Origin: Piezodorus guildinii | Lineage: Eukaryota > Arthropoda > Insecta > Hemiptera > Pentatomidae | Assembly (NCBI GenBank): GCA_023052935.1 | Contig: CM041293.1 | Coordinates: forward strand, 177,311,600 to 177,375,599 | Reading direction: 5' to 3' | DNA: 64,000 bases | Part shown: positions 2-63,140 of the stretch, piece by piece | Position numbering within the stretch: position 1 is the stretch's first letter | Layout of the letters: every line of letters begins with the position of its first letter | Translations under genes and position numbers: made by a program | Notes under the pieces: model-generated | Databases searched by the model: none | Told to the model about the DNA's origin: nothing | What the model saw: only the letters and a program-made list of their open reading frames with translations

Positions 2-853
2 AGACATAAATTAAAGGAAACTAACCAATACACCACTAACAATAACAATAACAACAATATTTACAGCTACCAAGGTATCTATTCATTCTTATCAGACATA
101 ACAATAAACAATAACGCTTCATTCAATACTACTGTAGACAACAAACACCACAACCTACCTTTAATCAATTATAAGCAAAATAAACAATATTTTACATTAA
201 CTCTGGAAAAATATGTTTCCCTTGTTCTATTAATATTTTTAATAATTTCTAAATTTTGCGGACATGAGTATTTGAACGCAAACGCGAAGATCTATGTACT
301 TTTGAATGCAAAGCTGTACATGTCTAGAATCATGATTACTTATGTGTCTGTATACGTGCGTATTTGTGCTTATAATAATACATCTATAAGTACGTATATG
401 AGTCTAAATGCTTATGGGAATATATCTTTTATCACCTTGTACGTCTTCTTATTTTATACATGTCGTGATTTTATATTATGTTATTTTATGGCATTTTGTT
501 ATTTCATAGCATCTTCTTATTATATCATATTTTATTATTTTATAGAATGTTGTTATATAGAGTCATTTTATTGTTGTATAAACATATTATTTTATAGTCT
601 ACTTATGGGGGATTATTATTATCAAGCAATACATTACTATTTATATATCAATAGAGAATCAAGGACTTACGTATTTATTGCGTTTTCACTATCAAAAATT
701 TACATTATTTCAGAAAATTTTGCAAATACTACAATCTATATAAAAACATTTAAATTAATTGAAATGAGGAGGGAGAAAGAAATACTTTTTACTGTCCTAA
801 TGTTAGTATTTTTGCTCACATATAATTACTCCAAAGATCACAAATATGGATAA
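2..853 (+). CDS. Open frame entering from the left edge, overlapping the LINE ORF
   Basis: One frame is open from base 2 to a TAA at 851-853, about 283 codons, although the DNA is very AT-rich and stops should be common. It has no start inside the window, so it is partial. The first 60 or so codons are rich in Asn, Thr and Lys. The rest is rich in Tyr, Ile, Phe and Cys, with hydrophobic stretches that could span membranes. It overlaps the start of the endonuclease ORF (ATG at 846) by 8 nt in another frame, the arrangement expected for ORF1 and ORF2 of an I/Jockey-type LINE. However, I see no CCHC zinc knuckles or other gag features, and base composition changes from A/C-rich to T-rich near position 200. 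It could be an unusual ORF1, or chance openness in low-complexity DNA. No function is assigned. Confidence 0.35.
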   Translation, partial: RHKLKETNQYTTNNNNNNNIYSYQGIYSFLSDITINNNASFNTTVDNKHHNLPLINYKQNKQYFTLTLEKYVSLVLLIFLIISKFCGHEYLNANAKIYVLLNAKLYMSRIMITYVSVYVRICAYNNTSISTYMSLNAYGNISFITLYVFLFYTCRDFILCYFMAFCYFIASSYYIIFYYFIECCYIESFYCCINILFYSLLMGDYYYQAIHYYLYINRESRTYVFIAFSLSKIYIISENFANTTIYIKTFKLIEMRREKEILFTVLMLVFLLTYNYSKDHKYG

Positions 854-2042
854 ATATATGAACATTATGCAATGGAACCTTAACGGCACGACCTCTCAAC
901 ATGAAGAATTAAAGCTTCTCATATCTGAACACCAACCTGAAATAATATGCCTCCAGGAAACACATCTAAAACCGAGCCGTGTATTTAATATTAAAAACTA
1001 TCAAATATTCCGAACGGACAAAGTAACTGATAACCGGGCCTGTGGGGGAGTTTTAACGGCAATACACAACCGATTGATAGCAAAGAAGATAAATATAGAC
1101 ACTCCCATTCAAGCAACTACCACAATAGTTCATACAACAATAAAAATACATATTTGCAACATTTATCTGCCGCCTACTGAACCTATTAATGAATATGAAT
1201 TAACACGACTTATCAATAAACTTCCTCAACCTTTCATTATCCTCGGAGATGTAAATGCATCTCACACCAGCTGGGGAAACAGAAACAATAACTCACGAGG
1301 AAACGTAATAAAACGCATACAGGATAATTTTGATTTGTTGCTGCTTAACACAGGAACAATGACACATCTATGTCCTAGAACTGGGACGCTTACCGCTATA
1401 GATTTAACCCTTTGTTCCCCAAACCTTTACAATCTTTTCGAATGGAAAGTACTACACGACCCTCACAATTCTGACCATTTCCCTATCTTAATGAAAATGA
1501 TTGGCAGAAATAGTGATGGAAGACGACCTTGGCAGTGGGCTGTCAATAAAGCTAACTGGGATATTTTTCAAAAGAAAATTAATCTGGAACGTGAAGAAGA
1601 AAATATAGATAAGAACAATAGCTATATCACTCAGCAAATATTAGAAGCAGCAGAAGCCTCAATCCCAAAATCAAACCCATCATTATCCATTCCGAAACCA
1701 CCTTGGTTTGACAATGACTGCAAAAAGGTAATCAAAAAACGAAACCAAGCCATCAATAAATTCCGAAAATGCCCATCGACAGAAAACCTTATCAACTTTA
1801 AAAAATGGAGAGCCCAATCTCGGAACCTAATTAGAAACAAGAAAAAAGAATCCTGGAACAACTTTGTTACTAACATAAATGCAAACACACCCATTCGCAC
1901 AGTATGGAGAAAAATTAATGCTATCAGAGGAAAATATTCTAATGAACAGCCGACACTCGAAATAGAAGGAAATATTATATATGACCCTACAATATTAGCT
2001 GAGAGATTCGCAGAACATACGAAGAAATATCGTCCTCAATGA
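846..2042 (+). CDS. LINE ORF2, endonuclease part (APE-type)
   Basis: The 398-codon frame begins with an apurinic-endonuclease-like domain that would nick target DNA to prime reverse transcription. Visible motifs are WNLNG at residues 10-14, the QET catalytic glutamate at residue 38, GDVNASH near residue 133 (Asp and Asn of the active site), AIDLTLCS near residue 180 and SDHFP near residue 209 (catalytic His). After about residue 230 comes the basic linker usual between endonuclease and RT. The frame stops at 2040-2042. The next frame supplies the expected continuation (sense residues ISSSMNYNLQF), so the stop results from a frameshift rather than being a natural end. Confidence 0.9.
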   Translation: MDKYMNIMQWNLNGTTSQHEELKLLISEHQPEIICLQETHLKPSRVFNIKNYQIFRTDKVTDNRACGGVLTAIHNRLIAKKINIDTPIQATTTIVHTTIKIHICNIYLPPTEPINEYELTRLINKLPQPFIILGDVNASHTSWGNRNNNSRGNVIKRIQDNFDLLLLNTGTMTHLCPRTGTLTAIDLTLCSPNLYNLFEWKVLHDPHNSDHFPILMKMIGRNSDGRRPWQWAVNKANWDIFQKKINLEREEENIDKNNSYITQQILEAAEASIPKSNPSLSIPKPPWFDNDCKKVIKKRNQAINKFRKCPSTENLINFKKWRAQSRNLIRNKKKESWNNFVTNINANTPIRTVWRKINAIRGKYSNEQPTLEIEGNIIYDPTILAERFAEHTKKYRPQ

Positions 2043-2317
2043 ACTATAACCTACAGTTTCGACAAAAAATTAACCAGCAACAACCAATACAATTTGACAT
2101 TAACAGAGCCTATAATAATGAAACGTACAACTTACCAATCACCGAATGGGAACTGGATACGGCTATATCTTCCTTAAAAATGTCCGCTATGGGACCAGAC
2201 TATATCCACAATTCCATGATCAAAAATATCCCGGCAAATCAAAAGAAATACTTACTCAGATTTTTTAACAGGATATGGCTAGAAGTGAACTACCAGAAAA
2301 ATGGCAAGAATCCATAG
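2039..2317 (+). pseudogene. LINE ORF2, linker between endonuclease and RT (frameshifted)
   Basis: This piece carries the stretch just before the RT domain, including AISSLKMSAMGPDYIHNSMI, which corresponds to the block of LINE RTs that normally reads K.....GPDGI. It overlaps the endonuclease frame through ATGA at 2039-2042. It then runs out of frame shortly after FNRIW, where the RT frame takes over (around 2275). The ATGA overlap is most simply a by-product of the frameshift, not translational coupling. Confidence 0.8.
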
Positions 2318-4530
2318 TCATACCTATCCTGAAGCCAGGAAAGAACAAATTAGAACTAAAAAATTACCGACCTGTATCTCTAACATGCTGCCTTTGCAAA
2401 CTCATGGAAAAAATTATAAATAAGCGTCTTCTATGGTACATCGAAAAGAACAACCTCCTGACAGACATTCAATGCGGGCAAAGAAAAGGAAGGTCAACTG
2501 TTGATCATCTCACTGCACTTGAAGCCGAAATATTAAATACCTTCATTAGGAAACGTGAATGCTTAGGTATTTTCTTTGATGTGGACAAAGCATTTGACAC
2601 CGTTTGGCGACCATCCATATTAAAACAGTTATATGACTGGGGATTCAGAGGAGCTCTACCTCGCTTCATCCAGAATTTTCTTAAGAAAAGGTCCATACAA
2701 GTACGCATAGCAGACCAACTTTCCAGGAAAACAATCTTAGAAAATGGAATCCCACAAGGAAGCGTCCTTAGCGGAACACTTTTTCTCATTGCCATCAACT
2801 CAGTACAAGATGCACTCACCCATCGATCACTCAAATCATGCCTTTTTGTAGATGACCTCGCCATACTCATACAATATACGGATACTCCTCGAACCAAGGC
2901 CATAATCCAGTCTATTTTGAACAAATTACAAACCTGGTCACAAGATAATGGTCTCACTTTTTCAACAGAAAAGACAAAATGCGTACTCTTCTCCCGGAAA
3001 AAACAACCTAGCACTCCTCCAACAATTACTTTATACAACAAAGCATTAAATTTCCATGACCACTGTACCTTCTTAGGATTAGCAGTCGATTCGAAACTTA
3101 CATGGAAAAAGCATATCATGAAACTGAAGGATAGCTGCTCACAACGATTAAATGTAATGAAAGTACTAGCTGGCACTAGCTGGGGAGCGGACAGATCGAG
3201 ATTACTCGAAATATACCAATCTATAATACGATCAAAGCTGGATTACGCAAGTCACATATATGCCTCTGCAAGATTTAGTCTCCTCACACAGCTCGATACA
3301 GTACACCACAACGGAATAAGGATAGCAACAGGAGCCTTTAGAACGAGTCCGATCCTTAGCATATGCGCTGAATCCGGTATACCACCCCTTACATTTCGAA
3401 GGCATCAACTAGCCATAAACTACTTAACAAACCTTGCAACACAACCAACAAACCCAGCTTTCCAATACGCATTTAGACCGAAATATCAACAACTTTACAG
3501 CAACAACCCATCAAAACCAGCACCCTTATCAATGAGATATAGACGAATCATAGAAGCAATAGATCAAATATATATACGAAACCCAGAAACCCTAACCCCA
3601 CCATGGATCTATGCAGTACCACGAATCAATATGACGCTACTCCGATTCAGGAAGAAAACCACACCACCATATATACTACATGAGAAATTCCAAGATATAA
3701 TAAATAAGAATAGAAACGCAACTTTTCTCTATACGGATGGCTCCAAAATGAACGACAATATTGGCTCGGCAGTTGTTACATCTGAACAAACTTTTAAATA
3801 CAAACTACCACCTCATTGCAGCATCTTCACAGCTGAACTTTCTGCTCTATCATATGCACTTCACCATATAATGTCAAAAGAGGGAGACAAATATATAGTT
3901 TGCAGTGACTCTCTCCCAGCACTACAAAGCCTACTGGAACTATACAGCGATCACCCATTGGTCACCAAAATCCACGAATATCTTAATATCCTCAAAACAC
4001 TCAAAAAAGATGTCGGATTCCTCTGGACCCCTTCCCACGTGGGGATTAAATACAACGAGATAGCTGACAAATCAGCAAAAGAAGCCGCACTTAGTAAACA
4101 AGATATCGTTCCAGTTGCCATTAAAGCCGACATTAAAATATGGTTACGCTCGGATACTAAAGCTGATTGGCAAAGGATGTGGGACACCGTAGATAATAAC
4201 AAGCTAAAGGAGATAAAACCAGATACACACCGATGGAAGACTTCAGTGAGAGCAACACGGAGAGAAGAAACTGCTCTAACAAGATTAAGAATAGGCCACT
4301 CAAGACTCACTCATATTCATCTCATCACGAAAGACCCACAACCAATATGCAATAGATGTCAGACAACCATAACCGTCAAACATATCATAGAGGAATGCCC
4401 GGATTACGAAAGTCTTATGCAGGAGTACAAGCTTGGCCGAGCTCTCAAAGAGTCACTTTTGGACTGCGAGGATGTCATAACCAGACTGATCAGATTCCTA
4501 AAAGAAACCAAATTAATTAAAGCGCTCTAG
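2275..4530 (+). CDS. LINE ORF2, reverse transcriptase and RNase H
   Basis: The 751-codon frame holds the RT and RNase H domains that copy the element RNA into DNA at a nicked target. RT blocks in order are NYRPVSLTCC, the motif-A aspartate in FFDVDKAFD (about residue 102), GIPQGSVLSGTLF, and the catalytic FVDD (about residue 190), a variant of the more common YADD. The thumb block TFLGLAVDSKLTWKKHI follows. RNase H runs from about residue 485: YTDGSK (Asp), FTAELSAL (Glu), VCSDSLPAL (Asp) and WTPSHVG...ADKSAKEA (His, Asp). Near residue 700 lies C-x2-C...H-x4-C, a knuckle typical of these C-termini. No stop interrupts the frame, so the damage to this copy is limited to the two upstream frameshifts. 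Confidence 0.93.
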   Translation: MARSELPEKWQESIVIPILKPGKNKLELKNYRPVSLTCCLCKLMEKIINKRLLWYIEKNNLLTDIQCGQRKGRSTVDHLTALEAEILNTFIRKRECLGIFFDVDKAFDTVWRPSILKQLYDWGFRGALPRFIQNFLKKRSIQVRIADQLSRKTILENGIPQGSVLSGTLFLIAINSVQDALTHRSLKSCLFVDDLAILIQYTDTPRTKAIIQSILNKLQTWSQDNGLTFSTEKTKCVLFSRKKQPSTPPTITLYNKALNFHDHCTFLGLAVDSKLTWKKHIMKLKDSCSQRLNVMKVLAGTSWGADRSRLLEIYQSIIRSKLDYASHIYASARFSLLTQLDTVHHNGIRIATGAFRTSPILSICAESGIPPLTFRRHQLAINYLTNLATQPTNPAFQYAFRPKYQQLYSNNPSKPAPLSMRYRRIIEAIDQIYIRNPETLTPPWIYAVPRINMTLLRFRKKTTPPYILHEKFQDIINKNRNATFLYTDGSKMNDNIGSAVVTSEQTFKYKLPPHCSIFTAELSALSYALHHIMSKEGDKYIVCSDSLPALQSLLELYSDHPLVTKIHEYLNILKTLKKDVGFLWTPSHVGIKYNEIADKSAKEAALSKQDIVPVAIKADIKIWLRSDTKADWQRMWDTVDNNKLKEIKPDTHRWKTSVRATRREETALTRLRIGHSRLTHIHLITKDPQPICNRCQTTITVKHIIEECPDYESLMQEYKLGRALKESLLDCEDVITRLIRFLKETKLIKAL

Positions 4531-5141: not shown

Positions 5142-6048
5142 TTGGGTGGTGTCACATGAAATGTCCGTTTTCAAGGTAAAGGATTTTTATTAAAAATACG
5201 ATATGAAAACAAGATAATTTTATTCGAAGTATTTACCTTCTTTTTCTACACATTTTTCCAAACGTGACACCAACTTTTTTTATCTCCGAACTGAAAAACT
5301 CTGAGCTTTGAAGAGAAACAAAATATCAAAACGCACTTTTCACTTGATCATCATTTTTAAAAAGTTTTCCTTTGACGAAGTTGTCTAAATTCCTGAACAG
5401 GTGGTAATCTGTTGGAGACAAGTCGGGAGAATATGGTGGATGCGGAAGAACTTCGTGGCCAAGTTCTTTCAATTTTTGCACGGTATGTTTTGAAACATGG
5501 GGTCTTGCTGCCGCTCAGTGAGATCATGAGGTACCCATGTATAGAGCTTTTTTACTTACCCAATACACTTTAAATGTCTGGAAACGGTAGATGCACTTGC
5601 ATTTAGTTGTGCTGAGAGTCCTTTAACTGTTTGGTAGGGATTCCTTCTAGTGTATGTTTAAGGACATCGTCTATTACGGACGGAGGTCTTCCTTGGGGCA
5701 AGTTTTCCAAGTCGGTATCCCCAGCTGAAAACTTAGCAAACCAACGGCGAATGTTCTGTTTATTAACACTCTCTTCCCCAAACGCCTTGCAAATATTTCT
5801 AGCGGCCTCAGCTGCTGATTGGCCGAGGTTAAACTCGTACAAAAATATTAATCGAAAATCGCGTGTTTCCATGCTCATATTTGGAGGTATACTAAAAAGT
5901 GGGTAATTGATTGGGAAGCTAATGTTTATAATACAAAGGTAGAGGATTAGTAACTGTTTACTCTAAATATGTAAACAACAGAGACCTGCAAAATCCTTTA
6001 TGTATTTCAGAAACTATAAAAACGGACATTTCATGTGAAACAACCCAA
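5142..6048 (-). mobile_element. Mariner-A copy 1, internally deleted, flanked by TA
   Basis: The termini are TTGGGT... and ...ACCCAA, flanked by TA (5140-5141 and 6049-6050), the duplication used by Tc1/mariner elements. The inverted ends match over roughly 30 bp. At about 907 bp it is shorter than an intact mariner (about 1.3 kb). It has the N-terminal DNA-binding part (5603-5878) and the C-terminal part (about 5220-5490), but the catalytic core between them is missing. The junction (sense CTGAGCGGCA joined to AGACCCC) is also present in three other copies here. Confidence 0.92.
5603..5878 (-). pseudogene. Mariner transposase N-terminus (helix-turn-helix), broken
   Basis: A 91-codon frame starting METRDFRLIFLYEFNLG. 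It contains the first helix-turn-helix of mariner transposases (AAEAARNICKAFGEESVN then RRWFAKFSAGD) and the linker DTDLENLPQGRPPSV. It stops where the second helix-turn-helix should begin. It could bind mariner ends at most and cannot cut DNA. Confidence 0.85.
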
Positions 6049-8389: not shown

Positions 8390-9223
8390 TTGGGTTGTTT
8401 CACATGAAATATCCGTTTTTATAGTTTCTGAAATACATAAAGGATTTTGCAGGTCTCTGTAGTTTTCTTCCGAATGTTTACATATTTAAAGTAAACAGTT
8501 ACTAATCCTCTACCTTTGTATTATAAACATTAGCTTCCCAATCAATTACCCACTTTTTAGTATAGCTCCAAATATGAACATGGAAACACGCGATTTTCGA
8601 GTAATATTTTTGTACCAGTTTAAACTTGGCCATTCAGCAGCTGAGGCCGCTAGAAATATTTGCAAGGCGTTTGGGGAAGGGAGTGTTAATGAACGGACCA
8701 TTCGCCGTTGGTTTACTAAGTTTTCAGCTGGGGATACCGACTTGGAAAACTTTCCCCGACGAAGACCTCCGTCCGTAATATACAACGATTTCCTCAAACA
8801 TACAGTAGAAGTAAGTAGGGGTTTAACAACAGTTAAAGGACTCTCACTGAGCGGCAGCAAGACCCCATGTTTCAAAACATACCGTGCAAAAAATTGAAAG
8901 CTGGGCTAAGGAGTTCTTCCGCACCCACCATATTCTCCCGACTTGTCTCCAACAGATTACCACCTGTTCAGGAATTTATACAACTTCGTCAAAAAAAAAC
9001 TTTTTGGAAATTATGATCATGTGAAAAGTTCGGTTTCAGATTTTGTTTCACTTTAAAGCTCAGAGTTTTTCAGTTTGGGGGATAAAAAAAGTTGGTGTCA
9101 CGTTGGGAAAAATGTGTAGAAAAAGAAGGTAAATACTTCGAATAAAATTATCTTGTTTTCATATCGTATTTTTAATAAAAATCCTTTATTTTGAAAACGG
9201 ACATTTCATGTAACACAACCCAA
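8390..9223 (+). mobile_element. Mariner-A copy 2, internally deleted, flanked by TA
   Basis: Starts TTGGGTTGTTTCACATGAAA and ends in CACAACCCAA, with TA at 8388-8389 and 9224-9225. Length is 834 bp. The transposase N-terminus is followed directly by the CTGAGCGGCA/AGACCCC junction, then C-terminal sequence with several frame breaks. The catalytic core is absent. Confidence 0.92.
8574..8897 (+). pseudogene. Mariner transposase N-terminus, fused out of frame
   Basis: 107 codons beginning MNMETRDFRVIFLYQFKLG. The helix-turn-helix (AAEAARNICKAFGEGSVN, then RRWFTKFSAGD) and DTDLENFPRRRPPSV linker are clear. After about residue 85 the reading passes through the internal deletion into another frame, so the last 20 residues are not transposase. 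No catalytic aspartates are present. Confidence 0.85.
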
Positions 9224-15052: not shown

Positions 15053-15859
15053 TTGGGTTGTGTCACATGAAATGTCCGTTTTCATGAAAACAAGATAATT
15101 TTATTCGAAGTATTTACCTTCTTTTTCTACACATTTTTTCCAACGTGACACCAATTTTTTTAACCCCGAACTGAAAAACTCTGAGCTTTGAAGTGAAACA
15201 AAATCTCAAAACGCACTTTTCATCATCATCATTTTTAAACAGTTTTCCTTTGACGAAGTTGTCTAAATTCCTGAACAGGTGGTAATCTGTTGGAGACAAG
15301 TCGGGAGAATATGGTGGGTGCGGAAGAAATTCGTAGCCCAGTTTCAATTTTTGCACGGTATGTTTTGAAACATGGGGACTAGCGTTGTCGTGTAAGAGTA
15401 TAGGAACCTCCGATTTACCAATCCAGGTTATTTTTTTTTTTAATTTTGTGTGCATTTGGTCAATTTTAATGCAGTACGTTGTAGAGGTAATGGTTTCATC
15501 TCTAGGTAAAAAGGAATAATAAATTATCCCAGCCATAGACCACCATACTGTAACCATCACTGTTCTGGAATGCAAATTCGGTTTTGGCATTTGCTCCGGG
15601 GTTCCGTCGATGTTCAAATATTTCTAGCGGCCTCAGCTGCTGAATAGCCGAGTTTAAACTCGTACAAAATATTACTCGAAAATCGCGTGTTTCCATGTTC
15701 ATATTTGGAGCTATACTAAAAAGTGGGTAATTGATTGGGAAGCTAATGTTTATAATACAAAGGTAGAGGATTAGTAACTGTTTACTTTAAATATGTAAAC
15801 ATTCGGAAGAAAACAACAGAGACCTGCAAAATCCTTTATGTATTACAGAAACTATAAAA
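15053..15859 (-). mobile_element. Mariner-A copy 3, one end missing
   Basis: The left terminus TTGGGTTGTGTCACATGAAA lies in a TA microsatellite. The other side breaks off within the 5' UTR-like region (…CAGAAACTATAAAAG at 15859), losing the terminal inverted repeat. Its internal deletion differs from that of copies 1, 2, 4 and 5. Confidence 0.9.
15114..15702 (-). pseudogene. Mariner transposase, catalytic half retained
   Basis: The N-terminus (METRDFRVIFC..., 15502-15702) is frameshifted and lacks the helix-turn-helix. The downstream frame (15114-15617) keeps part of the catalytic domain: VTVWWSMAGIIYYSFLP, then the second aspartate in LLHDNASPH and the third in SPDLSPTDYHLF. Their spacing fits the mariner DD34D pattern after allowing for a one-residue gap. 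The first catalytic aspartate is missing, so it is inactive. Confidence 0.88.
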
Positions 15860-16410: not shown

Positions 16411-17160
16411 AAAAATCTGGTGCGGACAACACATGACTTTCAATTACCTCCGTTTTTAAAATAGATTAAAGAGTTTTCAAATACAGTTAGAGATAAAAAA
16501 GAGTGAAACAATTAAAGAACTAATTAAATTGAATTTCTATAAAAACATGTTTTTTATTAAAAAATCTATTATATTATTATCTGAAATAATCAGTTAGTTT
16601 TATCGGTTTTTTCATCACTCTTTGTTAACTTTTACAAGCTTGTTTATAGGATAATATTTTTTCTAAAATCTTTAGTTTTCCAATGGCATATTATATATGC
16701 ATATTACTGAACTTATGATCGAAAACAAAAAATTGCATTAAACAAATATTTTTACAGTTTTTTCCTGTAGTCAGATCTCGAATTCGTTCAAACCTAAATG
16801 GTATTAAAGTCCATTAAATTTTACATCGATATAGCGAATGAAAATCGTTAAAGCCGTTTTTGAGAAAATCGTAAAAAGATGCAAAATGCATGGTTCATAG
16901 TGACTTCTAGTTAGCTGATTTTGATGAAAAAGTTTTTGTAACATCTCGGGCGTATAGTTGTCTTAAATATTAAATTTCAGTTTCATATGACTTATCGTTT
17001 ACGCGCGAGAGTTACCACACACAGACCTTTGCGGGACTTGATAATTTTGAATCAGGAGACCCTAAAACGTGTATTTCCGTTGAAAACTGGAAATCGAACA
17101 TTTTCACGATCACAATACATTCCCTTACTATATATTTCATATATAGGTAAGTGAAAGTAA
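16411..17160 (+). repeat. UR1 copy, both ends present
   Basis: Left end AAAAATCTGGTGCGGACAAC and right end ATATAGGTAAGTGAAAGTAA. Some internal sequence is deleted around 16760. No ORF. Confidence 0.88.
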
Positions 17161-17491
17161 AAATCTGGTGTGGACAACACACGACTTTCATTTACCTCGT
17201 CTGTTAAAATCAACTTAAAAACTATTAAATGTACTTCAATTTAAAAAATATTCAAAGTTGATTTTAATAAAACGTGTATTCATTTTCGTTGGAAACATAA
17301 GATTTAGATTAAATAATATAACTATATTAAATTGTTAATCAGTAATACGTTTATTCTCTATTCGTTACTTTATATTATCTTTTACAACTTCGTGTATCAG
17401 ATAATGTTTTCTCTAAAACTTTTCTCTTTCCAACGGTATATTATATTGTCTGTTGACTGTTCTTATTATCAAAAAACCAAAAACTACATAA
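17157..17491 (+). repeat. UR1 left arm, head-to-tail with the previous copy
   Basis: A second UR1 starts (AAAAATCTGGTGTGGACAAC) within the terminal A-run of the first. It continues to the CCAACGGTATATTATATTGT block and then stops. Head-to-tail adjacency with a shared A-run suggests insertion next to an existing UR1 end. Confidence 0.78.
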
Positions 17492-20824: not shown

Positions 20825-20972
20825 AAAAATCTGGTGCGCGCCACATTCGACATTCACTTACCTGACGTTGGTTAAAATCAATTTAAGATCTTTTAAATTA
20901 TGTTAGAGCTAAAAAAAGTTTAAAGAATTACATTCAGTTTCGTTAAAAACATATGTTTTAGCTTAAATAAAA
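20825..20972 (+). repeat. UR1 left arm interrupted by the SINE-A array
   Basis: Left end AAAAATCTGGTGCGCGCCAC. It is broken at 20972 by the SINE insertion and resumes at 22264 with the same 16 bp. Confidence 0.8.
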
Positions 20973-22263
20973 AAAAAGCTAAGTTTTTCCCCAATTAATT
21001 TGGGTACCCACTTTATAGCGGCTGGGTCTGCCCCAGGAGGGTCTCCATCCCCTAGGGTCGCCCCCCGACTGATTTAACAGAATAAATAATATTCTGCCAC
21101 AGCCGGGATTCGAACCCAGGACCTGGAGCACAGCAGACTAGTGCTCTATCCACTAGACCACGCCGCTCCCTAATATTCTGCCACAGCCGGGATTCGAACC
21201 CAGGACCTGGAGCACAGCAGACTAGTGCTCTATCCACTAGACCACGCCGCTCCCTAATATTCTGCCACAGCCGGGATTCGAACCCAGGACCTGGAGCACA
21301 GCAGACTAGTGCTCTATCCACTAGACCACGCCGCTCCCTAATATTCTGCCACAGCCGGGATTCGAACCCAGGACCTGGAGCACAGCAGACTAGTGCTCTA
21401 TCCACTAGACCACGCCGCTCCCTAATATTCTGCCACAGCCGGGATTCGAACCCAGGACCTGGAGCACAGCAGACTAGTGCTCTATCCACTAGACCACGCC
21501 GCTCCCTAATATTCTGCCACAGCCGGGATTCGAACCCAGGACCTGGAGCACAGCAGACTAGTGCTCTATCCACTAGACCACGCCGCTCCCTAATATTCTG
21601 CCACAGCCGGGATTCGAACCCAGGACCTGGAGCACAGCAGACTAGTGCTCTATCCACTAGACCACGCCGCTCCCTAATATTCTGCCACAGCCGGGATTCG
21701 AACCCAGGACCTGGAGCACAGCAGACTAGTGCTCTATCCACTAGACCACGCCGCTCCCTAATATTCTGCCACAGCCGGGATTCGAACCCAGGACCTGGAG
21801 CACAGCAGACTAGTGCTCTATCCACTAGACCACGCCGCTCCCTAATATTCTGCCACAGCCGGGATTCGAACCCAGGACCTGGAGCACAGCAGACTAGTGC
21901 TCTATCCACTAGACCACGCCGCTCCCTAATATTCTGCCACAGCCGGGATTCGAACCCAGGACCTGGAGCACAGCAGACTAGTGCTCTATCCACTAGACCA
22001 CGCCGCTCCCTAATATTCTGCCACAGCCGGGATTCGAACCCAGGACCTGGAGCACAGCAGACTAGTGCTCTATCCACTAGACCACGCCGCTCCCTAATAT
22101 TCTGCCACAGCCGGGATTCGAACCCAGGACCTGGAGCACAGCAGACTAGTGCTCTATCCACTAGACCACGCCGCTCCCTAATATTCTGCCACAGCCGGGA
22201 TTCGAACCCAGGACCTGGAGCACAGCAGACTAGTGCTCTATCCACTAGACCACGCCGCTCCCC
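20973..22263 (-). mobile_element. SINE-A with 14-fold amplified tRNA-like head
   Basis: A SINE on the minus strand bounded by perfect 16-bp duplications, TTTAGCTTAAATAAAA at 20957-20972 and 22264-22279. Read 5' to 3' on the minus strand, it has fourteen 84-bp head units, then one body copy (about 110 bp, matching 33267-33380), and an end GGGGAAAAACTTAGC followed by T7. The body lacks the last ~130 bp present in the full copy at 33191-33513. The insertion sits inside a UR1 copy and is young, judging by the intact duplication. Confidence 0.93.
21085..22260 (-). repeat. 14 x 84-bp identical tandem array of tRNA-like units
   Basis: Each unit starts GGGAGCGGCGTGGTCTAGTG and ends GGCAGAATATTA. It carries an A box (TGGTCTAGTGG) and a B box (GGTTCGAATCC), so each has a complete internal RNA polymerase III promoter. 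Units repeat every 84 bp and I see no difference among the 14 (lines 420 bp apart are identical). A 6-bp stem (GAGCAC with GTGCTC) can form where an anticodon arm would be, but the acceptor strands do not pair, so these are not tRNA genes. No T4 terminator lies within the units, so transcripts could read through several. The long minus-strand ORF across the array is open only because 84 is divisible by 3. Confidence 0.95.
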
Positions 22264-22918
22264 TTTAGCTTAAATAAAATAACAATAATCATTTACGTTT
22301 ATACCCTCCTATCCGTCAGTAAACACACTTTTAAATAATGTTAAGATTTGAAAAATGTTTAAAGAATAATGTTTTGAGTGCCGACGGAAAGATTTATTTT
22401 GTATTGAATAACAAAAATTAGCAATTATTATCTACAAGAAACCTTGCTTCATCACTGTATTTTACATTATACAATTTTGCACATCAGATATGTTTTTTTA
22501 AAATGTTTAGATTTCCAACATATATAAAAAATAAGTAAATAATAAAATATTTACAACACAAAAAAAAACCTTTTAACGGTACTTTGTCACTGGGATTTAG
22601 TGCACCATAATAAAAACCGTTAAGAACTAAGTTAAATTTTTGATGAAAACGTGTGTTTCTGATTAAATAATCTAACAATAGAAATTATTATTTGCAATTA
22701 TAACTTCAGTTAACGCCATTTTCGTCTTTCTGCATTACACTTTACAACTTATATTGTATAATATTTTTTTTTTCTTATCTTTAGCTTTCCAACGGTATAT
22801 TATACATCTATATTATGAATCTGCAAACTTTAAGGTTAACATAACGTAATCATTCTCTAATTGGTTTAGAGTCGTGTAAGTGAAAGTAATTTGTTGCACT
22901 GGATTTTTATAATACGAA
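22264..22918 (+). repeat. UR1-derived, degenerate, continuation of the interrupted copy
   Basis: Resumes after the target duplication. Contains two or three degraded left-arm blocks (for example TTTCCAACGGTATATTATAC near 22786) and ends with a reverse left terminus (TAAGTGAAAGTAATTTGTTG near 22877). Confidence 0.6.
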
Positions 22919-23369: not shown

Positions 23370-24304
23370 TTGGGTTGTTTCACATGAAATGTACGTTTTT
23401 ATAGTTTCTGAAATACATAAAGGATTTTGCAGGTCTCTGTTATTTTCATCCGAATGTTTAGATATTTGAAGTATACAGTTACTAATCCTCTACCTTTGTA
23501 TTATAAACATTAGCTTCCCAATCAATTACCCACTTTTTAGTATACCTCCAATAATGAATATGGAAACACGCGATTATCGAGTAATATTTTTGTACGAGTT
23601 TAAACTCGGCCATTCAGCAGCTAAGGCCGCTAGAAATATTTGCAAGGCGATTGGGGAAGGGAGTGTTAATAAAAGGACCATTCGCCGTTGGTTTCCTAAG
23701 TTTTCAGCTGGGGATACCGACTTGGAAAACTTGCCCCGAGGAAGTCCTCCGTCCCTTACAGACAACGATATCCTCAAACATACAGTAGAAGGAAACCCCT
23801 AGCAAACAGTTAATGGACTCTCAGCGCAACTAAATGCAAGTGCATCTACCGTTTCCAGACATTTAAAGTGTATTGGGAAAATAAAAAAGCTCGATACATG
23901 GGTACTAGTAATATCACTGAGCGGCAGCAAGACCCCATGTTTCAAAACATACTGTGCAAAAATTGAAAGAACTGGGTTACGAAGTTCTTCCGCACCCACC
24001 ATATTCTCCTGACTTGTCTCCAACATATTACCACCTGTAACAGGTGGTGTTCAGGAATTTAGAGAACTTCGTCAAAGGAAAACTTTTTGAAAATGATGAT
24101 CAAGTGAAAAGTGCGTTTTCAGATTTTGTTTCACTTCAAAGCTCAGAGTTTTTCTGTTCGGGAATAACAAAGTTGGTGTCACGTTGGGAAAAATGTGTAG
24201 AAAAAGAAGGTAAATACTTCGAATAAAATTATCTTGTTTTCATATCTTATTTTTAATAAAAATCCTTTACCTTGAAAACGGACATTTCATGTGACACAAC
24301 CCAA
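23370..24304 (+). mobile_element. Mariner-A copy 4, internally deleted, flanked by TA
   Basis: TTGGGTTGTTTCACATGAAA to GACACAACCCAA with TA on both sides (23368-23369, 24305-24306). At 935 bp it is the longest copy here. Same CTGAGCGGCA/AGACCCC junction as copies 1, 2 and 5. Confidence 0.93.
23554..24226 (+). pseudogene. Mariner transposase: full DNA-binding domain, no catalytic core
   Basis: The frame starts MNMETRDYRVIFLYEFKLG with the first helix-turn-helix. A stop after EGNP is followed in the same direction by the second helix-turn-helix (GLSAQLNASASTVSRHLKCI). This is the only copy here with a well-preserved bipartite DNA-binding region. After the deletion the C-terminus resumes (24044-24226: NLENFVKGKLFENDDQ to LVSRWEKCVEKEGKYF). 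The catalytic aspartate region is absent apart from degraded traces. Confidence 0.88.
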
Positions 24305-33190: not shown

Positions 33191-33513
33191 GGGAGCGGCG
33201 TGGTCTAGTGGATAGAGCACTAGTCTGCTGTGCTCCGGGTCCTGGGTTCGAATCCCGGCTGTGGCAGAAATATTATTTATTCTGTTAATTCAATCGGGGG
33301 ACGACCCTAGGGTATGGAGACCCTCCTAGGGCAGACCCAGCCTCTATAAAGTGGGTACCCAAATTAATTGGGGAAAAACCTGGCGGCTGAGCGTGATTAA
33401 GGCCTAATCACCTCATTGCACTGCCGTTGGCCTAGAAACAGTACGAATCTCTATATGTACTGAGCCCAAGACCCTTCATGGGTTGTAGTGGTACAGGTTT
33501 TTTTTATTTTTTT
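33191..33513 (+). mobile_element. SINE-A, full-length copy with 17-bp target duplication
   Basis: 323 bp bounded by perfect ATTTTATTATCATCAAA duplications (33174-33190, 33514-33530). The tRNA-like head has an A box (TGGTCTAGTGG) and B box (GGTTCGAATCC). The body includes GGTATGGAGACCCTCC and GGCGGCTGAGCGTGATTAAG. The tail is T-rich (CAGGTTTTTTTTATTTTTTT) rather than poly(A). The head differs from the array units at 21085-22260 by a single base (CTCCGGG against CTCCAGG). Confidence 0.93.
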
Positions 33514-45507: not shown

Positions 45508-45801
45508 GCGGTATGATTAAATATCAAAATAATAAAATAGTAGCTAATATGTAGGTATTATTTCAAAAACAGAAAGTAAGCTAAATAAATTGTTTGTTTT
45601 TTTTGTTGTAGACAAATAAAGTTGTCAAGTGATAAGAACGGTGTGTCAGATAACTTTTGTTAATGCGCTCACATAAATTTTCGTAATCGGACAGCTGTCA
45701 CAAGCCTCATTTTTTTCAAGAAATTTATGTCTCTTTGTTTAATTAAGTTCATTTTATGTTTTTGTTTTAATGTTTGATGACTTTGCAGAACCCCACTTTA
45801 G

Positions 45802-46066
45802 AGAGTAGCGTCGTCTTGTGGATAAAGCACTTGTCTACTCTGGGTTCGGATACCGACCGTGGAACGATATTTTTTATCATTTTAGCCAGGAACAGACTCA
45901 GGGTATGGAGACCCTCCTGGGGCACACCTAGCCTCTATAAAGTGGGTATCCAAAATTAAGAGGAAAACCTGACGGCTGAGCGTGATTTTGGCCTAACCAC
46001 CTCATTGTATGTCTCTTGGTCCAGAAACAATTCAAATCTCTATGTGCCCTGAATCGAAGACTCACT
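45802..46066 (+). repeat. SINE-A copy, diverged
   Basis: GTCGTCTTGTGGATAAAGCA (A-box side) and GGGTTCGGATACCG (B-box side, mutated) head the copy. The body GGTATGGAGACCCTCCTGGG and GGCGGCTGAGC-like block (ACGGCTGAGCGTGATTTTGG) follow. Older than the copies at 20973 and 33191. Confidence 0.85.
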
Positions 46067-46429
46067 TGGACTCACTCGGTTTACACTCAGTTATGAAATT
46101 CTTTCGTATTTACCCATTTTTCAAAAATGCTAACATTTAAGATACTAGTAAGATTAAGCTGTCCGTCATTCATAGAACAAGTATTTTGTAAATATTTTGA
46201 CGTGGACATGTCTTTTGGCAGGGTGCATATTTTATAGTTTTTAATGTGTAACTTTATTTTAATTCTCAAAAATTTAATACGTTTGAATAAAAAAAATCAG
46301 TATTTTATAGATAAGCACATCCATAACCTTTTTCTATCCAGTCAAGGAGAACTTTATTTACCAAATTAAATAAATAGATAGTATCAATTCAATATAAATA
46401 TTTAGAATTCGTCTATAGATAGAATTTAA

Positions 46430-62532: not shown

Positions 62533-63036
62533 TAAGATTTTTTTTTCTTCTCATTTATATTTGTCTATATTATATCAGTAATTTTTAACTAATTTATAAG
62601 TGTTTGTTTGTTTTGTTTATTTATTTAACGTCAATTTATGCTACCGTGGCTAATCGGACGATGTGGGAGTCCTAAATTTTGCCTATCCAGGTTTTATTAG
62701 GACAGGGATCTTTAACGAGTAACTGACATCGCAAAAGCTCGGGACCACCTTTTAACGCCCCCTCAGAAGGACGGCATTCTAAAGATTTTTTTTTCTTCTC
62801 ATTTATATTTGCTAGATTTATTATCAGTAATTTTTAATCTAATTTTATAAGTGTTTGTTTGTTTTTGTTTATTTATTTAACGTCAATTTATGCTACCGTG
62901 GCTAATCGGACGATGTGGGAGTCCTAAATTTTGCCTATCCAGGTTTTATTAGGACAGGGATCTTTAACGAGTAACTGACATCGCAAAAGCTCGGGACCAC
63001 CTTTTAACGCCCCCTCAGAAGGACGGCATTCTAAAG
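62533..63036 (-). repeat. 252-bp tandem duplication containing SINE-B body
   Basis: 62533-62784 and 62785-63036 are near-identical (period 252 bp, measured from the GGCTAATCGGACGATGTGG block). Both share a small deletion in the SINE (GACGATG joined to TGGGAGTCC), so the segment was duplicated after SINE insertion. Confidence 0.85.
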
Positions 63037-63140
63037 ATTTTTTACTCCCATTAAAAAATCCTAGGACCTCCTGCGGGTTTTAACTCGCGACCTTCGGCAT
63101 AGGAGGCTGTTATGCTAGCCACCCAGCTACAAGTAGGATC
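62860..63140 (-). repeat. SINE-B copy with head, after the duplication
   Basis: The second duplicate continues into the rest of the SINE: GCGGGTTTTAACTCGCGACC (B-box side, mutated) and GGCTGTTATGCTAGCCACCC. Confidence 0.8.

Follow-up and report, generated by a model that had tools for sequence, protein, structure and literature searches.

How did a SINE come to carry fourteen identical copies of its promoter head inside a single target-site duplication? This question is raised by one locus in a 64,000-nucleotide stretch of the Piezodorus guildinii genome (contig CM041293.1; hereafter the window). Our analysis points to a probable history in which the element was inserted by normal retroposition and its head was expanded to 14 copies later, recently and at the DNA level.

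Structure of the array SINE

The sense strand of the array SINE is the minus strand of the window. In sense order the locus consists of a target duplication, one extra G, 14 heads, one body with a nine-T end, and the second target duplication. Tandem Repeats Finder assigned the head array (21087-22262, minus strand) a period of 84, 14.0 copies and 100% matches with no indels, and a unit-by-unit print showed that 14 of 14 units, 1,176 bp in total, are identical. No exact repeat other than the array and its multiples was returned when the 64-kb window was scanned at periods of 40-599 and a minimum of two full copies. Each unit contains, on the minus strand, an A box (TGGTCTAGTGG) at unit position 11 and a perfect B box (GGTTCGAATCC) at unit position 55. 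The internal joins are identical and clean in 13 of 13 cases and read TATTAGG, with loss of the TATTT motif that a motif search located at the border between the last head and the body (21084-21088, minus strand).

The body (20978-21086, minus strand) is shortened at its 3′ end and, in comparison with family copies, carries four rare or private changes. Together with the T end it spans 20973-21086, and the T run extends to 20969. Reading in sense from the first base of head 1, this nine-T run (20969-20977, minus strand) is the first T run of four or more; it forms the tail, is a possible Pol III terminator and overlaps the target duplication. The duplication is a perfect 16-bp match between 22264-22279 (5′ in sense, minus strand) and 20957-20972 (3′ in sense, minus strand), with the sequence TTTAGCTTAAATAAAA and a chance expectation of 0.03 matches. 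The extra G (22263, minus strand) is seen before head 1 only. The sequence-only reading had described fourteen identical 84-bp units, A and B boxes in each of them, a single SINE body after the heads and perfect 16-bp duplications around the whole element. These claims were borne out, with the body refined to a 3′-shortened form; all unit boundaries fall inside the target duplication, which encloses the array in exactly whole units.

The Rfam tRNA model scored 18.9 bits on each unit (gathering threshold 29) and was outscored there by the tRNA-like mascRNA family, at 22.7 bits (gathering threshold 42.5). No Rfam family matched at gathering level, and ARAGORN with the bacterial code made no tRNA call in the window. 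On these model scores the head reads as tRNA-like and degenerate. The element shows A and B boxes in a tRNA-like head, target duplications and many interspersed copies, which are features of a tRNA-derived SINE.

The SINE family in the assembly

The searched assembly is chromosome-scale (1.203 Gb in 434 contigs, with seven large contigs of 118-222 Mb), and the window sits within a 188.7-Mb contig. An exact pattern of the A/B box region had 4,598 matches genome-wide (2,268 + 2,330), including the 14 of the array. A head search, which scored 40 of 1,039 first candidates, listed 53 matches: 14 from the array, two exact and 37 near-exact. All 39 non-array copies among the matches listed were retrieved; they represent the most array-head-like copies and not a random sample. 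A single head was found in 39 of 39 (E <= 1e-10). One of these copies, L010, showed an additional weak partial head match (82%) at a looser cut-off, which was gone at the stricter one.

Family members are about 300 bp long and mostly end in oligo(T), with little or no T tail in L020, L022, L027 and L028. The other copies start with GGGAGC or a one-base variant, and 33 of the 39 have a duplication of at least 8 bp, some of which are within low-complexity DNA and may be due to chance. Two further single-headed copies are located in the window on the plus strand: an ordinary one with a long body and an oligo(T) tail (33191-33505, end approximate), which belongs to the same SINE, and an older one of the same family (45801-46080, ends approximate).

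The 3′ end of the array copy is CTTAGC followed by T, whereas its relatives usually have another 115-120 nt or so, which in most of them leads into oligo(T); L013 and L014 were absent from the alignment used for this comparison. Two of the 39 copies, L015 and L023, are likewise shortened before the T run. These two and the array copy (20973-20990 in the window) all end straight in a T run, and such 3′-shortened copies look as if broken or early-stopped RNAs had received U tails before insertion.

Searches for other multi-headed copies

Three genome searches for the head-to-head form identified an array at one locus only. The first pattern, a B box followed after 8-38 bases by the A box region, gave 14 matches, 13 of which are the array. 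The remaining one (C3:654814, L059) was rejected as a second multi-head locus on finding a tRNA-Leu gene with an ordinary SINE directly behind it. The tRNA-Leu (cag) gene occupies 1531-1613 of L059 (minus strand), and the T-tailed SINE lies immediately past its 3′ end; the T-rich end of a tRNA gene may serve as a priming site for SINE RNA with a T tail. Searching for the junction with up to three mismatches returned 15 matches: the 13 of the array and two ordinary copies (L073 and L074), which were rejected as multi-headed copies, being single-headed with flanks that resemble the junction. A wider box spacing of 39-69 bases produced one match (G000:C6:47364480, L082). Here a solo head, comprising head positions 3-83 with no body, is followed after 40 bp by a complete, separate SINE, for which inspection by eye showed a duplication of its own, and we rejected this locus as a head-to-head array. 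The solo head stops almost exactly at the end of the array unit.

Because two of the three patterns demand exact boxes, diverged heads or other junctions could escape these searches. Pattern scans of viral and prokaryotic contig collections gave no match, which carries little weight, as records close to the window's genome may be missing from them. With the head-to-head join found at the array locus only and 39 of 39 retrieved copies single-headed, a multi-headed subfamily was rejected, and the earlier claim that the multi-head form is unusual is supported.

Insertion site

The flanks of the array SINE are diverged repeats with further copies inside the window. When both flanks were joined and compared with these copies by BLAST, one copy (17159-17326) aligned 8 bases beyond the joined insertion point, with all remaining matches ending no further than that point. 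Six flank-repeat copies, when forced into gapped alignments, ran across the insertion point and lacked the insert, though gaps were present nearby; the gaps are explained by the flank-repeat copies being only about 70% alike. These copies offer modest empty-site support for insertion of the whole block. The main support for whole-block insertion is the target duplication. Among the other copies with a recognisable duplication, 21 of 33 carry 1-3 extra bases before the head and 12 of 33 join directly. Given this frequency, the extra G of the array copy fits normal integration, and it was probably added without template at that step.

Timing of the probable expansion

To date the head array relative to the insertion, divergence of the array copy was compared with 40 others (the 39 retrieved copies and the copy at 33191). 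Five sites, none of them outside the body, distinguish the array copy from the majority. One of these differences is common, being shared by 8 of 40 copies. The remaining four are rare or private, the base of the array copy occurring in 1, 0, 2 and 0 of the 40. This corresponds to four such changes over about 110 bp of body, or two in 104 bp with the 3′ end excluded, since two of the four depend on how the shortened end is aligned. The heads show zero differences from the majority over 1,176 positions. With changes spread evenly, the probability that all would fall in the body is 5e-5 for the four and 0.0066 for the two that are independent of the shortened end; at the lower 95% limit of the rate derived from these two changes, unchanged heads have P = 0.06. 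The timing test is therefore strong only if all four body changes postdate the insertion, and weak with two.

A 43-base piece of the body containing both inner changes had one exact match in the genome, which is the array copy itself. No other copy with both changes was found genome-wide with one mismatch allowed, a search that a copy with both inner changes and two or more further ones would escape. Either inner change by itself was also met in three other copies; inspection by eye gave no sign of a special kinship between these and the array copy. We take the comparison to mean that the head array expanded recently, next to a body whose age is ordinary. It is also possible that the body changes were inherited from a source copy that we did not see.

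Origin of the first extra head

The unit begins at the SINE 5′ end, which corresponds to the predicted Pol III start, 10 bases upstream of the A box; in the available text of PMC9191728, cockroach SINEs are reported to start 11 bp upstream of this box. The unit end falls within the loop of a predicted hairpin, at TATTT. In the single-headed form this is the sole terminator-like motif (TTTT, TATTT or TCTTT) before the tail, and TATTT is described as a minimal Pol III terminator in other SINEs (PMC8466645, in part). A terminator-like motif was located at the unit end in 39 of 5,000 shuffles, in a test made post hoc, after the site had been seen. At the join, no base is shared with either side; disregarding the extra G raises this to one.

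Because it extends from a predicted Pol III start to a terminator-like motif and its join shares next to no bases, the unit resembles a whole small RNA. The first extra head may thus have been copied from a head-only RNA, although the evidence is only suggestive: the join is at the element's 5′ end, and the second RNA end, at position 84, is only predicted. It is a tentative and rather unlikely proposal that the SINE also makes a head-only Pol III RNA of ~84 nt, that the LINE reverse transcriptase jumped onto it end to end, and that the head was later amplified, yielding a ladder of nested RNAs. If true, the locus would represent an in vivo record of template jumping that was then turned into a fourteen-promoter Pol III array.

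Proposed retroposition followed by expansion in place

As read from the anatomy of the element, a 3′-shortened, U-ending RNA of a common Pol III SINE would have been inserted by target-primed reverse transcription, a process that would yield the 16-bp duplication, the extra 5′ G and the oligo(T) end. The 84-bp head would later have been multiplied in place, and we favour a DNA-level process for this step, for example replication slippage, unequal exchange or gene conversion. The first head-to-head join could have been made by a template jump of the reverse transcriptase to a head-only RNA at insertion, or by a rare blunt DNA join. Because this join is at the SINE 5′ end and shares almost no bases, it probably originated from an RNA end. 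Thirteen independent jumps are unlikely to have shared one clean join, and we therefore favour no more than one or a few jumps, with subsequent amplification of the DNA. Expansion in place is favoured because no multi-head source was found in the assembly and the body diverged while the heads remained unchanged. Against it, the body changes could stem from a source copy that is missing from the assembly or too diverged to be picked up, or could be errors made in copying during insertion; taken singly, these changes are also present in other copies; and the head is required to have stayed free of mutation before the expansion.

The sequence-only reading had left the choice between retroposition of a multi-head RNA as a unit and expansion after insertion. 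A multi-headed SINE RNA from a multi-headed source locus would account for a duplication that encloses the entire array, and neither heads nor body contain a TTTT to halt Pol III before the nine-T end. However, the three genome searches gave no second head-to-head copy against 4,598 intact heads, so no multi-head source is visible; the body piece with both changes was not found elsewhere, and internal promoters would be expected to favour shorter transcripts. We consider this origin unlikely, and with no source copy and a diverged body beside undiverged heads the choice leans to expansion. Nor is it likely that all 14 heads arose in one insertion, with the LINE reverse transcriptase jumping serially, end to end, from one 84-nt head-only RNA template to the next. 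The unit, running from the predicted Pol III start to TATTT in a hairpin loop, could be a complete small RNA, and a motif at its end arose in 39 of 5,000 shuffles, although that test was post hoc. The R2 reverse transcriptase switches between separate templates (PMC8857657, available text), a fungus is reported to show double jumps within a single 14-bp duplication (PMC2104539, available text), and the solo head of L082 ends at head position 83, although it is one case and has no clear duplication. Serial jumping is made less likely by the 13 identical clean joins without added bases, which would have a probability of about 2e-6 at the genomic frequency of extra bases at 5′ ends, and by the lack of the body changes in the heads.

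The identity of the units had also been taken to imply either recent expansion or an assembly artefact. Perfect identity is what would be expected had the assembler multiplied one or a few heads or miscounted them as 14. An artefact appears improbable in view of the chromosome-scale 188.7-Mb contig, the short length of the array (1.2 kb), the presence of exactly whole units within one target duplication, and the lack of any other head-to-head join against 4,598 heads. Recent expansion is thus the favoured part of this earlier claim. The sequence-only reading had suggested that such an array could act as a transcription source, boundary or small-RNA locus. We give very little credence to the idea that the array has been kept as a cluster of Pol III/TFIIIC sites, a putative boundary or small-RNA source; an intact A and B box in each of the 14 heads, at constant spacing, would suit such a role, but the array was found at one locus only and perfect identity fits recent expansion without selection.

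In the array as it stands, Pol III transcription could begin at any of the heads and run through to the end of the element, because there is no TTTT from head 1 to the T end and TATTT is lost at the 13 joins. The predicted products are nested Pol III RNAs with 1 to 14 heads (84n + about 110 nt) ending at the nine-T run.

Relation to known systems

Dimeric and multimeric SINEs, of which Alu is an example, resemble the array in having more than one Pol III head per element or tandem. Like the array SINE, SVA contains a tandem array inside a composite retroposon, but the SVA array belongs to the whole family and is not made of promoter heads. The VNTR of SVA is named in the available part of PMC13174262. 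Dimeric SINEs are widespread, and Sbg9 of Blattella consists of joined SINE units with three genome copies at 90% similarity (PMC9191728, in part), whereas the array has 14 heads and one body. Dip/B2 tandems, with up to eight Dip units, are recurring (PMC8466645, in part), whereas no other multi-headed copy of the array SINE was found. Chimeras made by LINE template switching share with the array the joining of other RNA copies upstream within one target duplication; they involve one or two jumps, usually between different RNAs, and none with 13 repeats appears in the available parts of PMC2104539 and PMC13174262. L1 chimeras with tRNA pieces are mostly half-length and antisense, unlike the array heads (PMC13174262, same part).

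Among these precedents the array is nearest to the SINE-derived satellites of reptiles. In squamates, according to the available text of PMC10702118, these satellites (sSats) are head-to-tail arrays of SINE pieces, often with a longer end unit reaching the SINE end; longer arrays are more uniform, and the unit of a minor gecko variant matches the tRNA part of Squam3. In the array, too, the tandem SINE piece continues at one end into the remaining SINE. The main snake unit, however, is internal, 67 nt long and starts inside the head, whereas the array unit is exactly the whole promoter head; squamate sSats occupy up to thousands of loci, in contrast to one locus within one target duplication; and their mean unit similarities are 63-97%, in contrast to 100% (PMC10702118, same text). 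Several loci sharing a unit, as sSats have, were not found in the genome searches, which returned one locus and would miss other units, other junctions and diverged heads. In the titles and abstract openings listed by searches of the openly accessible literature, we met no report of an array of whole heads within one target duplication. We regard the array as a variant of SINE-derived tandem repeats.

The array is a single locus that is still uniform and retains its original duplication, and it may show how a mobile element begins to give rise to a tandem repeat. If a reverse transcriptase made the first join, the locus bears on how SINEs gain an extra head, the step behind dimeric SINEs. With a complete Pol III promoter in every unit, the array also provides a natural test of how serial promoters affect Pol III output, nucleosomes and neighbouring DNA.

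Open reading frames and other features of the window

Since 84 is divisible by three, each strand of the array has one open frame: 21052-22269 (minus strand, 405 codons) and 21086-22273 (plus strand, 395 codons). Five Pfam families exceed their whole-protein cut-offs on the 405-codon frame, and no single stretch passes for any of them; these matches were treated as an effect of repetition and a protein reading was rejected. Gene finders could predict false repeat proteins over such frames.

Elsewhere in the window, a LINE on the plus strand (807-4530) contains endonuclease, reverse transcriptase and RNase H domains over successive open frames. Four similar fragments of a Mos1-type (mariner) transposase are located at 5603-5962, 8490-8897, 15502-15786 and 23470-23802, and a Pfam check of one of them (8490-8894) confirmed the transposase domain. 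A tandem duplication at 62534-63043 comprises two copies of a 252-bp unit that are 97% alike.
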